DNA from: Bacteroidales bacterium
Lineage (GTDB): Bacteria; Bacteroidota; Bacteroidia; Bacteroidales; UBA12077
NCBI GenBank assembly: GCA_018334875.1
Contig: JAGXLC010000014.1
Span: 1-33,588 of the forward strand
DNA length: 33,588 nt
Reading direction: 5' to 3'
Part shown: in pieces, positions 30,130-33,579 of the stretch
How the letters are laid out: every line of letters begins with the position of its first letter
Numbering within the stretch: the stretch's first letter is position 1
Position numbers and translations under genes: made by a program
Notes under the pieces: model-generated
Seen by the model: the letters and a program-made list of their open reading frames with translations, nothing else
Database searches by the model: none
Told to the model about the DNA's origin: nothing

Positions 30130-30639
30130 ATGGAATTATATGAAGGATTGTTAACCAGGCGAAGCATCAGGGCTTACAAACCCGACAAGATAGAATACCG
30201 GGAAGTGGAGGATATCGTTAAGGCCGGAATGTATGCGCCTTCAGCAGTAAACTGTCAGCCCTGGCATTTTATCATCATCGATGACCGGGAAATCTTTCAG
30301 CAGATCATGGACATTCATCCCTATTCCAAGATGCTGAAGGATGCCCAATATGCCATAGTGGTACTGGGCGATGAAAAATTGCAGCACGGTCCGGGCTACT
30401 GGGTGGTGGATTGTGCCGCTGTCACCCAAAATATCCTCCTTGCAGCTCATTCAAAAGGCATCGGCTCGGTATGGCTCGGATTGCATCCCAGGGAGCAAAG
30501 AAAGCAGGGCATCAAAGAGTTGTTCAACCTTCCGCAGCATATTCAGCCGTTTTCCATTATTGCGCTTGGTTATCCGGATGAAGAGAAAGAGCAGCCCGAA
30601 CGGTTCAAAAAAGAGCGGATACATTATAATCGGTGGTAA
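30130..30639 (+). CDS. Nitroreductase family protein
   Basis: A 169-residue flavoprotein of the nitroreductase superfamily, probably FMN-bound and dimeric, reducing nitro compounds, quinones or related substrates with NAD(P)H. It has LTRRSIRAYKPDKIE at the N-terminus, MYAPSAVNCQPWHFIII, and the C-terminal GIGSVWLGLHP and IALGYPDEE flavin-binding segments. The length suits the short branch of the family. It is 26 bases before folC on the same strand. Confidence 0.88.
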   Translation: MELYEGLLTRRSIRAYKPDKIEYREVEDIVKAGMYAPSAVNCQPWHFIIIDDREIFQQIMDIHPYSKMLKDAQYAIVVLGDEKLQHGPGYWVVDCAAVTQNILLAAHSKGIGSVWLGLHPREQRKQGIKELFNLPQHIQPFSIIALGYPDEEKEQPERFKKERIHYNRW

Positions 30640-30665
30640 TCATTTACTTATTGAATAATGCAGAT

Positions 30666-31955
30666 ATGACCTATGAAGAGATTCTGGAGTGGATGTACCG
30701 CCAGATACCCATGTTTCAGCGGAACGGATCGGCTACCTACAAGATCGACATGGAAACCACCGAGCAGTTGGATGCCCGTTTCGGGTATCCCCATCAATCT
30801 TTTAATACCGTTCATGTAGGCGGGACCAACGGCAAAGGTTCTGTTTCCCATATCCTGGCCTCTGTTTTACAGACGGCAGGCTACCGGACGGGCTTGTATA
30901 CCTCGCCCCATCTGAAAGATTTCAGGGAGCGCATCCGTGTAAATGGGAGGATGATAGAAAAAGATTTTGTGGTGGACTTTATTCGGGAAAACGGGGATTG
31001 TTTTGAAGCACTCAAATCTTCCTTTTTTGAGATGGCCGTGGCCATGGCTTTTCAATATTTTAAAGAGCAAAGGGTAGATGTTGCTGTGGTTGAGGTGGGA
31101 CTGGGCGGCAGGCTGGATTCCACCAATATTGTTTATCCCGATCTTTCTGTAATTACAAATATCAGTCTGGATCATACCCGTTTTTTGGGAGATACCCTTG
31201 AAGCCATCGCCGGTGAGAAGGCAGGGATTATCAAACCTTCCAGACCGGTGGTTATTGGAGAATACCAATCTGCTACGGCGCCTGTTTTTAAAGATAGGGC
31301 ACAGGAATGTAACGCGCCCGTTTGTTTTGCCGATAAGGAATACCGGGTGGAACCGCTGACAAAAGAAAAACCCGGAGAAGCCATTTACCGGGTAAGCAGG
31401 GCAGGGGAGGTACTGTTTGAAAAGCTGCGGACCGATCTCACCGGAAGCTACCAAAGCAAAAACCTTGCAACAGCCCTGAAGACCATTGATATACTTAATT
31501 CCCTTAATTATGGTCTAAGCCGGAAAAGCATCACGGACGGACTGGCCCATGTAAAACGAAATACCTCCCTTTTGGGGCGATGGCATATCCTGCAGCAATC
31601 CCCTCTGATCATCTGCGATACGGCCCACAACGAAGCAGGACTGGAATGGAACCTCCGGGAGCTGAAGTCCATGGATATCCAAAACCTGCATTTTGTGCTG
31701 GGATTTGTCAACGACAAGGACCTGGATACCATACTGCCGCTGTTCCCCAAAACGGCAAGCTATTATTTTACAAAAGCGGATATTCCCAGAGCGCTGAACG
31801 AGAAGAAACTGGAGGCAAAGGCCGGGGAGTACGGTCTGATGGGAAATGCTTTCCCCCGTTCTGCCCAGGCTTTGGAGGAAGCACGTCAGCAAGCCGGCCC
31901 CAATGATTTGATTTATGTGGGTGGCAGCACCTTTCTGGTGAGTGAGGTGATCTGA
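30666..31955 (+). CDS. folC: Folylpolyglutamate synthase / dihydrofolate synthase
   Basis: A 429-residue Mur-ligase-like enzyme that adds glutamate to dihydropteroate or folates using ATP. The P-loop is VGGTNGKGSVSH, the Mur-ligase centre is EVGLGGRLDSTN with ITNISLDH, and the C-terminal domain has the ICDTAHNEAG signature. The frame opens at a GTG at 30633, which overlaps the nitroreductase stop. The ATG at 30666 (MTYEEILEWM) gives the family N-terminus and is preferred. It is the last gene before the repeat block. Confidence 0.93.
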   Translation: MTYEEILEWMYRQIPMFQRNGSATYKIDMETTEQLDARFGYPHQSFNTVHVGGTNGKGSVSHILASVLQTAGYRTGLYTSPHLKDFRERIRVNGRMIEKDFVVDFIRENGDCFEALKSSFFEMAVAMAFQYFKEQRVDVAVVEVGLGGRLDSTNIVYPDLSVITNISLDHTRFLGDTLEAIAGEKAGIIKPSRPVVIGEYQSATAPVFKDRAQECNAPVCFADKEYRVEPLTKEKPGEAIYRVSRAGEVLFEKLRTDLTGSYQSKNLATALKTIDILNSLNYGLSRKSITDGLAHVKRNTSLLGRWHILQQSPLIICDTAHNEAGLEWNLRELKSMDIQNLHFVLGFVNDKDLDTILPLFPKTASYYFTKADIPRALNEKKLEAKAGEYGLMGNAFPRSAQALEEARQQAGPNDLIYVGGSTFLVSEVI

Positions 31956-31968
31956 CTGGCGGTCAGTA

Positions 31969-31990
31969 GAGACACGCCGCGGCGTGTCTC
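31969..31990. repeat. REP-like palindrome 1
   Basis: A perfect 22-bp palindrome: arm GAGACACGCC, then a GC centre, then its complement. It is preceded by GGTCAGTA. The 8-bp tandem array begins at the next base. Confidence 0.85.
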
Positions 31991-32166
31991 CACGACGGCA
32001 CGAAACCACGACGGCACGACAGTACGACGGCACGGAAGAACGATGGCAAGATAGCGCGATGGCACGACGGCGCGACGGCGCGAATGCACGATAGGGCGAA
32101 GGAATGAGAAGAGGAGAAGACGGGAAGACGAGAAAACGGGAAGATGAGAAAATGAGAAAACGGGCA
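31991..32166. repeat. 8-bp-period tandem array (22 units)
   Basis: Read in eights from the end of palindrome 1, the sequence gives 22 successive degenerate octamers. The first fourteen resemble CACGACGG (cacgacgg, cacgaaac, cacgacgg, cacgacag, tacgacgg, and so on). The last eight resemble GACGGGAA/AATGAGAA. The phase is never broken. Because 8 is not a multiple of 3, all reading frames share the same 24-bp coding period, which explains long meaningless open frames here. Confidence 0.8.
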
Positions 32167-32190
32167 GGGTAGATAGAGGCGCGTTTTGTA

Positions 32191-32212
32191 GAGACATGCC
32201 ATGGCATGTCTC
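32191..32212. repeat. REP-like palindrome 2
   Basis: A perfect 22-bp palindrome with arm GAGACATGCC and centre AT. It is preceded by GTA as in palindromes 1 and 3. Compared with palindrome 1 the arm and its partner change together (ACACGCC to ACATGCC, GGCGTGT to GGCATGT). Confidence 0.85.
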
Positions 32213-32286
32213 ATTGGTTGTTATGTCGATGATTAACCTGGCAGCCTCTGGATCAAATTGGAATGGTAACGAATTGACGCCATGCT

Positions 32287-32314
32287 GGTCAGTAGAGAGG
32301 CAATGCATTGCGTC
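32287..32314. repeat. Degenerate REP-like palindrome
   Basis: GCAATGCATTGC (32300-32311) is a perfect 12-bp palindrome within the wider, imperfect GTAGAGAGGCAATGC...TTGCGTCC. The 5' flank GGTCAGTAGAGA is identical to that of palindrome 1, so this is probably another, decayed member of the family. Confidence 0.6.
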
Positions 32315-32383: not shown

Positions 32384-32846
32384 GGTACCCCTACCTTGTT
32401 AAATACAAGGTTAGGGTAGTTCCGAACCTACCTTGACTATGTTCCGAACCTACCCTGACTATGTTATGAACCTACCCTGACCAGGTAAAAAGGAAATCAA
32501 GCCTTGCTTCGAACCTACCCCCACCAGGTAAAAAACCGGGTAAGGGTAGGTCCAGACCTACCCTCACCCGGTAAAAAAGAAGGTAGGGGTAGGTTCCGTA
32601 CCTACCCCTACCAGGTATAAAAGAAGGTGGAGGTAGTAAAAAACCTATCTCAACCAGGTTAAAAACATCCCCGGACTTGTTCAGAGCAACCCCATGATAT
32701 ATAAAAAGGAAGGCCGGTTTTGTTCTGAACCTAACCCAACCAGGTGTAAAACAAGGTCGAGGTAGTTCCGAACCTACCCATGTCAGATATAAAAGAAGGT
32801 GAGGGTAGTAAAAAACATCCCCGAACCAGGTTAAAAACATCCCCAA
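32384..32846. repeat. 43-bp-period hairpin-forming tandem array
   Basis: The phrase CCAGGT(A/T), or a decayed form, recurs at 32481, 32524, 32567, 32611, 32654, ~32697, 32740, ~32783 and 32826, a steady 43-44 bp step. Each unit joins a 22-bp part like GTTCCGAACCTACCCTGACC to one like GTAAAAAAGAAGGTAGGGGT; the two are partly complementary. Good stems result, such as GGTAGGGGTAGGT/ACCTACCCCTACC (32582-32612) and ACCGGGTAAGGGTAGGT with its partner (32535-32572, one mismatch). Two 22-bp half-units stand at the left end. No unique spacers separate the units. Confidence 0.82.
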
Positions 32847-32890
32847 TCTATACCGGAACCTGCCTTTATGATGTATAATATCCGGTTATG

Positions 32891-32968
32891 TAGAACTACG
32901 CCCCCTGTCCGTAGAATCACGCACGTCCCTGGAGACACGCCCACTATCCCTGGAATCACGCACATCCG
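32891..32968. repeat. 39-bp dimer tandem repeat leading into palindrome 3
   Basis: Four units alternate in length 21-18-21-18: TAGAACTACGCCCC..., TAGAATCACGCACGTCCC, TGGAGACACGCCCAC..., TGGAATCACGCACATCCG. Each starts like the left arm of the REP-like palindrome (TAGAgcCACGCC), and palindrome 3 follows immediately as if it were the next unit. Confidence 0.7.
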
Positions 32969-32995
32969 TAGAGCCACGCCGCGGCGTGGCTCTAC
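32968..32995. repeat. REP-like palindrome 3, next to the transposase gene
   Basis: A perfect 28-bp palindrome with arm GTAGAGCCACGCC and centre GC, the longest of the family here. A half-site ATGGCTCTAC follows 9 bases later. It lies about 60 bases beyond the stop codon of the RAYT gene, the usual place for REP elements relative to their transposase. Confidence 0.85.
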
Positions 32996-33057: not shown

Positions 33058-33579
33058 TTATGTTTTGTAAAATTTATCCTGGTCCCAATTTTTCGGGTTG
33101 TTAATGATGTATTGTTGTATTCGTTTAAATTCATCTTCGTCATGAATCATATGATCATGGAAACGTGATTGCCATGCAAACGGTAGATTTTCCTTTTTGG
33201 CATATTTGGTTACCCTGCCTTTGAAATGATTGATAACTGATGAAATGGAATTTTTTACCATCCGTTGGAATGCATTGGGTTGGTATACAGACCGACCGGG
33301 GTTATCAATTCCAATCAAACAATGAAAATGATTGGGCATAATGATCCATGTATCCATGATCAATACCTGATAAACCCTGAACATGGCCAACCAGTTTCCG
33401 GCAGCAATATATCCCAGTTCTGATAAATACATTTCGCCATTTTGTATTTTTCCGAAATACATCTCATGATCTTTGGTACAAGCCGTTATAAAATAACAGC
33501 CGGATGATGAATAATCCCATCCCTGCAAACGCATCGTTTGGGTTCGGTATTTGTTGTTGAATAAATGATCGGTGGCCAT
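33058..33579 (-). CDS. REP-associated tyrosine transposase (RAYT, Y1/HUH family)
   Basis: A 173-residue HUH-superfamily single-strand nuclease related to IS200/IS605 TnpA. The HUH motif is MPNHFHCLIG (H84 and H86), the strand before it is WIIMP, and the catalytic tyrosine is Y157 in RIQQYIINNPKNW. GCYFITACT near the N-terminus and WQSRFHDHMIHDEDE are also typical of RAYTs. All catalytic residues seem intact. The ATG at 33577-33579 gives a normal N-terminus, but the window ends 9 bases upstream so a longer start cannot be excluded. No terminal inverted repeats or partner gene are visible. RAYTs usually act on REP palindromes in their own genome, and such palindromes lie immediately downstream. 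Confidence 0.9.
   Translation of the reverse strand: MATDHLFNNKYRTQTMRLQGWDYSSSGCYFITACTKDHEMYFGKIQNGEMYLSELGYIAAGNWLAMFRVYQVLIMDTWIIMPNHFHCLIGIDNPGRSVYQPNAFQRMVKNSISSVINHFKGRVTKYAKKENLPFAWQSRFHDHMIHDEDEFKRIQQYIINNPKNWDQDKFYKT

Follow-up and report, generated by a model that had tools for sequence, protein, structure and literature searches.

A two-part array of degenerate octamers is one copy of a dispersed, polar intergenic repeat family in a Bacteroidales genome

Here, we analyse a stretch of 33,588 nucleotides from a Bacteroidales bacterium (hereafter the window), which is one whole contig (G000:C14) of its genome (G000; 4.72 Mb in 533 contigs). At 31991-32166 it carries an array of degenerate octamers that follows a gene which we interpret as folC from its two Pfam families (Table 1), FolC matches being present in all 24 genomes searched. 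The stop codon of this putative folC ends 10 bases 5' of the first of three GTAG palindromes and 35 bases 5' of the array. A sequence-only reading of this DNA had placed the start of the array exactly after the palindrome, but the inverted repeat reaches three bases into the first octamer: 11 perfect pairs extend out to 31990 and are followed by a mismatch (31968/31991) and by two further pairs (31966-31967 with 31992-31993). Close to the end of the contig stands a gene resembling REP-associated tyrosine transposases (RAYT-like), a call that is below threshold for both models, with 72.5 bits against a cut-off of 80 for NF047646 and an E-value of 0.00068, under the gathering score, for PF01797. 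Two further repeats lie between the array and this gene. Degenerate 43-44-base repeats (ACCTACCC...CAGGTAAAAA) with inverted copies occupy 32386-32880 and form a separate repeat family 3' of the array, and two 39-base copies, 79% alike, occupy 32898-32980, immediately 5' of the third palindrome and extending into it.

Table 1. Features around the octamer array in the window
Feature	Position	Strand	Basis
Putative folC, Mur-ligase-type folylpolyglutamate/dihydrofolate synthase	30633..31955	+	Pfam PF08245, PF02875
Palindrome 1, GTAG-tagged REP-like inverted repeat, 13/14 pairs, reaching three bases into the array	31966..31993	+	
C-type half: 14 CACGACGG-like octamers (words RCGANNGN)	31991..32102	+	autocorrelation, unit listing, TRF, lexicon
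G-type half: 8 GACGGGAA-like octamers with a purine fraction of 0.875	32103..32166	+	TRF, unit listing, pattern search
Palindrome 2, same family and orientation as palindrome 1	32188..32212	+	
Palindrome 3, GTAGAG...CTCTAC form, adjoining the transposase gene	32968..32995	+	
RAYT-like gene (below curated cut-offs)	33058..33579	-	NCBIfam NF047646, PF01797

The listing of units gives 22 octamers in a single phase, with no phase break, as the sequence-only reading had described over 176 bp. Autocorrelation, the check which that reading proposed, returns a period-8 signal: identity is 0.673 at lag 8 and 0.719 at lag 16, and no first-order Markov shuffle out of 20,000 attained the lag-8 value, neither at that lag nor anywhere between lags 2 and 20, where the null peaked at 0.506. 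Nearly every unit differs, as was also claimed, with 19 distinct sequences among the 22 units (CACGACGG three times, AATGAGAA twice), and the reported shift in composition along the array is real: 14 CACGACGG-type (C-type) units are followed by 8 GACGGGAA-type (G-type) units, the purine fraction climbs from 0.67 in the first half to its higher value in the second, and TRF splits the array into two calls (31991-32091 and 32106-32162). Divergence is unevenly distributed over the octamer. The first 13 units hold 21 minority letters, and columns 6 and 7 of the eight account for 13 of these, an unevenness matched by 48 of 20,000 random placements; the anchor columns (3, 4, 5 and 8) of these units keep 49 of their 52 letters. 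Neither strand of the array holds a G-quadruplex motif (four runs of at least three G with loops of 1-7 bases).

The window array belongs to a dispersed, polar family of octamer arrays that lie between genes. A BLAST search of the array against its own genome found 57 places at E<=1, of which 51 reach E<=0.001, counting the query itself and some places within the same array. Three in-phase CGANNGNR units matched 76 times on the forward and 108 times on the reverse strand (overlapping matches counted), and the reversed control pattern gave none; the G-type pattern matched 26 times forward and 11 times reverse, its control once and not at all. We collected 41 stretches of the genome (149.7 kb of the 4.72 Mb), in which arrays have periods of 8 (54 arrays), 7 (19), 21 (9) and 6 (7), counts that favour octamers since the stretches were selected around array or palindrome hits, and that are given as such because the corresponding null counts were distorted, probably by runs of N in two stretches. 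The family is polar, in that 75 of 78 neighbouring feature pairs lie on one strand and, among directly adjacent modules, C-type precedes G-type 9 times and the reverse order is never seen; heptamer arrays often come next after the G-type. None of the 78 C-type or G-type features carries a G-quadruplex motif on its purine-rich strand. Several contigs, e.g. C415, C87, C162, C303, C160 and the pair C255/C419, begin or end in or near octamer arrays, and hence such arrays may break the assembly and be under-counted.

The strict, uninterrupted phase that had been emphasised for the window copy stands for that copy and fails as a special trait. Across the family, anchored units follow one another at 8, 16 or 24 bases in 301 of 325 steps; because the other 24 are off phase, including steps of 9, 10 and 6 bases in sister arrays, the phase of the family is well kept yet not strict. 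At this rate, 21 clean steps would be expected about once in five (0.926 to the 21st power).

Units of the C-type are drawn from a small lexicon, 48 chains with 365 words having been found in this genome. In the phase RCGANNGN, the commonest of 375 words are ACGACGGC (58), ACGAAAGA (46), ACGACAGC (24) and ACGACTGC (20), figures that lean towards the anchors R, CGA and G because the chains were found with the pattern RCGANNG; the column test on the window array is free of this bias. Within words, positions 5 and 8 are coupled (0.334 bits above the shuffle mean, shuffle maximum 0.056), and between successive words position 5 carries almost no mutual information (0.032 bits, shuffle maximum 0.055). 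Word order is near random with a weak excess of repeats: identical words occur at lag 1 in 28 of 317 cases (within-array shuffle mean 18.4, maximum 30) and at lag 2 in 26 of 269 (mean 15.7, maximum 28). Strings of three words common to at least two arrays number 13 (global shuffle mean 3.6, maximum 9) and shared strings of four number 4 (mean 0.16, maximum 2), two of the latter inside contig C303. Along 37 chains of G000, the 5' third is the most uniform (35 distinct among 114 words) and the 3' third the most diverse (52 among 99), a gradient equalled in none of 1000 permutations, and first letters of the GCGA type climb from 4% to 40%. In the other genomes the gradient was not significant (249 of 2000), nor was a longer 3' extension (19 versus 17).

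Where do these arrays lie with respect to genes? The neighbouring "genes" are here mechanical open frames of at least 110 or 90 amino acids. Among 45 array clusters of G000, 20 have both neighbouring frames, of which 7 are convergent, 11 tandem and 2 divergent (raw counts). Between tandem frames, 5 arrays are sense and 6 antisense. Termination of the facing gene of the Rho type, which predicts antisense arrays in tandem pairs, is disfavoured by these counts. The 5' edge of a cluster is nearer its frame than the 3' edge in 15 of the 20 (p 0.04), an asymmetry that comes partly from extra 3' modules outside the C/G labels, and 12 of the 23 clusters with an upstream frame on the same strand start 4-41 bases past the end of that frame. 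In other genomes the edge rule is followed by 30 of the 35 rows with both neighbours, and by 20 of 23 in a subset chosen by hand out of 56 rows after these had been seen (omitting rows without both neighbours, near-perfect repeats, arrays in large frames and second arrays per locus). The rows that go against it are one array of L134, together with L138, L142, L182 and L188.

Outside this genome the distribution is patchy. Among 147 relatives, with the own genome counted, 8 from scattered families hold four in-phase CGANNGNR units, and the reversed control matched G044 alone; in a phylum sample of 395 genomes, 5 genomes matched (own genome included), at least two of them with uniform repeats, and the control matched G312 and G470. 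Among the 80 of 118 stretches listed in a scan of named genomes, which serve as examples and not as rates, most heterogeneous arrays belong to Bacteroidota, with isolated ones outside that phylum, and near-perfect octamer repeats turn up across many phyla. The reversed control pattern matches 18 times in G044 and 10 times in G312, so that other octamer grammars may exist there. Heptamer arrays of the TGAGTNN kind accompany the octamers, being present in 7 of the 8 octamer-array genomes and in 20 of the 139 others (Fisher p 2.4e-5, a guide given that the genomes are related); the reversed-pattern control is uninformative here, as TGAGT reads the same backwards. Two genomes, G070 and G093, hold exceptionally high numbers of TGAGTNN matches, 226 and 130 (overlapping ones counted), and no match to the octamer pattern. 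Carriage of the array by plasmids or phages is disfavoured, neither collection giving a match at E 0.001, though the low-complexity filter of BLAST may hide some.

Comparison with congeners bears on how the arrays are inherited. In one of them (G004, 80% FolC identity), an array of about 18 octamers, C-type and then G-type, directly follows the folC stop codon with no palindrome. Downstream of folC in the three remaining congeners (57-62% identity) no array is present. By flanking genes, four of the five array stretches of G004 pair with array stretches of G000: C6 with C255 and C419 (two contigs ending in arrays), C45 with C74, C18 with the window contig C14, and C118 with C34, the last matched by its downstream gene and 3' flank only. 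The fifth (L129) has no counterpart among the 41 stretches of G000, a set chosen by hits in which array-free counterparts of the G004 stretches could not appear. Fourfold-degenerate sites of six flanking genes are identical between the two species at 308 of 518 positions (0.595), where random expectation is 0.26-0.28. The units at folC number 22 in the window and about 18 in G004, and their alignment is equalled by 970 of 2000 alignments of shuffled units; neither end of the array emerged as an older, register-aligned part (1825 of 5000 shuffles as good for the G-type half, the C-type half being no better). Thus, array position and word grammar appear to outlast individual units, unless the arrays arose independently in both species. 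The "continuing expansion" that the sequence-only reading had suggested finds support as unit turnover, since both the number and the order of units at folC differ in the congener.

In light of these observations, we propose that the window array is an inherited, polar array whose units turn over in register, that it is tolerated at the edges of genes, and that the GTAG palindromes belong to a separate REP-like family; we give this reading a probability slightly above one half (about 0.55). Units would be copied in register by slippage or unequal exchange inside an array, together with exchange of units between the arrays of one genome, and such copying would let the words change without loss of the ACGA..G anchors or of the 8-base phase. 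Selection may act mainly by confining arrays to sites of low harm, which are those that closely follow a stop codon and are remote from divergent promoters. As a rule, the purine-rich strand of an array has its 5' end closer to a gene than its 3' end. Several observations sit less well with this proposal. Exchange between arrays is not seen directly, and half of the shared four-word strings come from the one contig noted above; there is some local similarity, both in the lag-1 repeats and in the distance between words, which averages 2.39 (Hamming) within arrays and 2.51 between them (2 of 500 permutations as low). Moreover, the lower variability of the anchor columns is not required of a neutral array, the arrays at folC show no older register-aligned part, the gradient from 5' to 3' lacks significance outside G000, and arrays at a common place in two species could have arisen twice.

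A rival reading, which we consider unlikely, is that of a binding array, in which a DNA- or RNA-binding protein would read ACGA..G every eight bases and selection would hold the phase and the anchors while leaving the middle two positions free. The heterogeneity of columns, with anchors kept at a distance where fourfold sites have fallen to 0.595, and the coupling of positions 5 and 8 are as such a protein would predict, and conserved anchors with coupled positions leave room for a putative binding role. Against it stand the off-phase steps of the family and the differing number of units between species; the sequence-only reading had offered a "constraint on spacing", to which these 9-, 10- and 6-base steps lend no support, though some columns do vary less. 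Eight bases also differs from the DNA helical repeat of about 10.5 bases, and an element acting in mRNA is hard to reconcile with the balance of sense and antisense arrays between tandem genes. Plus-strand RNA and minus-strand DNA fold no better than shuffles (z +0.92 and +0.90). That folding result also tells against a coding sequence or a structured RNA, a highly improbable reading: minus-strand open frames do cross the array (31515-32207 and 31913-32308), but neither has a Pfam match at E<=0.01, no Rfam family is found in the window at gathering score, and the array is missing downstream of folC in three congeners; gene, RNA family and folded RNA are all disfavoured. Could the array instead be a common short tandem repeat that arose by replication slippage and is now in decay? 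Arrays of this sort are indeed subject to slippage, as G075 and G126 show by the local homogeneity of theirs (identical words 0.340 and 0.346 within arrays, 0.095 and 0 between them), and the near-perfect octamer repeats of many phyla and the weak local similarity in G000 speak for it as well. In G000, however, a unit resembles its neighbours hardly more than it resembles units from distant arrays, which agrees, for this genome, with the earlier claim that the array is not a fresh slippage product. Loss of MutS is disfavoured as a cause, since each of the 15 genomes tested, among them all 8 with arrays, has MutS1 above cut-off. Independent slippage is further disfavoured because a shared lexicon, a common polarity and the succession from C-type to G-type recur at unrelated loci, and we regard slippage as an improbable origin. 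A speculative and, in our view, rather unlikely variant is that one common source serves to rewrite every array of a genome, units being replaced directionally from the gene-side end and copied from other arrays or from a template, such that places are inherited, one genome has one "dialect", and octamer and heptamer arrays are products of one genome-level process. It is suggested by dialects at position 8, which is T in all 49 words sampled from G075 and, for G000, either C or A in 312 of its 365 words, and by the co-occurrence with heptamer arrays.

It might also be that the array is part of a REP/BIME-like composite spread by the neighbouring RAYT transposase, which we hold to be quite unlikely. 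The window itself invites this view, having a RAYT-like gene and a third palindrome, and in G000 the link between palindromes and arrays is close: 10 of its 12 distinct exact GTAG palindromes lie within about 180 bp of an octamer array (that of C71 by BLAST hit), the exceptions being C201, with only another kind of period-8 stretch nearby, and C229, with none. A second palindrome type (GTAGAGACGCAATGCTTGCGTCTC) with shared flanks (GATGTAGCTACAG-like 5' and TCTCGGAGATTGGGG-like 3'; the succession B-P2-L) also repeatedly leads into C-type arrays (C255, C86, C175, C188, C419, C74 and C34). Across the 147 genomes, 2 of the 8 with arrays and 5 of the 139 without have the exact palindrome, so that the two are weakly associated (Fisher p 0.048). 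As a requirement, the link fails. The congener array that directly follows the folC stop codon has no palindrome, nor do several G000 clusters, as regards the types searched; hence the palindrome is dispensable, and it was rejected as a necessary seed. RAYT as a driver of the arrays is disfavoured, as relatives (E<=1e-10) occur in 54 of the 139 genomes without arrays and in 5 of the 8 with them (Fisher p 0.27), the array genomes with none being G110, G126 and G004 (57% complete). The palindromes resemble GTAG-tagged REPs and their RAYTs (PMC3733652) in starting with GTAG, in being inverted repeats at 12 distinct exact sites and in having a RAYT-like gene, below curated cut-off, beside one of them, a likeness that concerns the palindromes and not the array; arrays are not consistently bounded by them, given the congener locus and the clusters just mentioned. 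In the available part of that source, GTAG repeats are listed for Proteobacteria, Cyanobacteria, Chloroflexi and the PVC group, and the repeats given for Bacteroidetes are of the CGTC type alone (PMC3733652). The GTAG palindromes are a second, REP-like family, often found beside arrays, and one of them separates folC from the array in this lineage.

Returning to inherited arrays with units that turn over, several known systems are comparable. STRR (short tandemly repeated repetitive) heptamers of heterocystous cyanobacteria form dispersed tandem arrays that serve as genome fingerprints; like the octamers they are dispersed short tandem arrays, but they have a period of 7 and an unrelated sequence. 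The closest likeness is to the heptamer arrays GGGAATC and GGGGA(C/T)T of Xanthomonas and Nostoc, which, as far as the available portion of the report goes, are intergenic and degenerate, have fixed and free positions and are of no known function (Rehm et al. 2015, PMC4692102). The 5' edge of their G-rich strand lies near a gene whatever the orientation of that gene, they are scarce between divergent genes, two species have them at common sites with varying length and sequence, and their G-runs form quadruplexes (same portion, PMC4692102). The octamer arrays share with those described in that portion (PMC4692102) the dispersed intergenic copies, units with fixed and free positions, the gene-edge rule, low numbers between divergent genes and an inherited location with unit variation (order having been tested at folC only); they differ in having a period of 8, no quadruplex motif and another phylum as host, and they alone show the two-part succession from C-type to G-type and REP-like palindromes nearby. 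TAACTGA direct repeats are reported from Beggiatoaceae, Cyanobacteria and five Bacteroidetes, related heptamers rarely forming repeats, and the excerpted report mostly discusses them relative to downstream start codons (PMC4679880); by that excerpt they are, like the octamers, dispersed, intergenic and patchy over phyla including Bacteroidetes, and, unlike them, little degenerate (PMC4679880). More widely, the part of a survey at hand describes heptamers as the most abundant periodic intergenic repeats of many and varied prokaryotes and sees nothing that clearly points to their function (PMC6344855). Among the open-licence papers listed, no title or abstract opening dealt with degenerate octamer arrays in Bacteroidota.

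The octamer arrays are a period-8, two-part, polar version, in Bacteroidota, of this known kind of heptamer array. An octamer family with heptamer-like placement and turnover in another phylum suggests that the specific sequence, the quadruplex and the number seven are all inessential, and its two distinguishable word types allow the direction and the source of unit turnover to be measured by comparison of strains. The heptamer arrays of G000 are separate neighbours of the octamer arrays, and those of the TGAGTNN, CAGTNRR, CAGTTCY and GGGACTC kinds lie near them, as at C180:7779-7956, C113:621-709 and C7:33281-33344.
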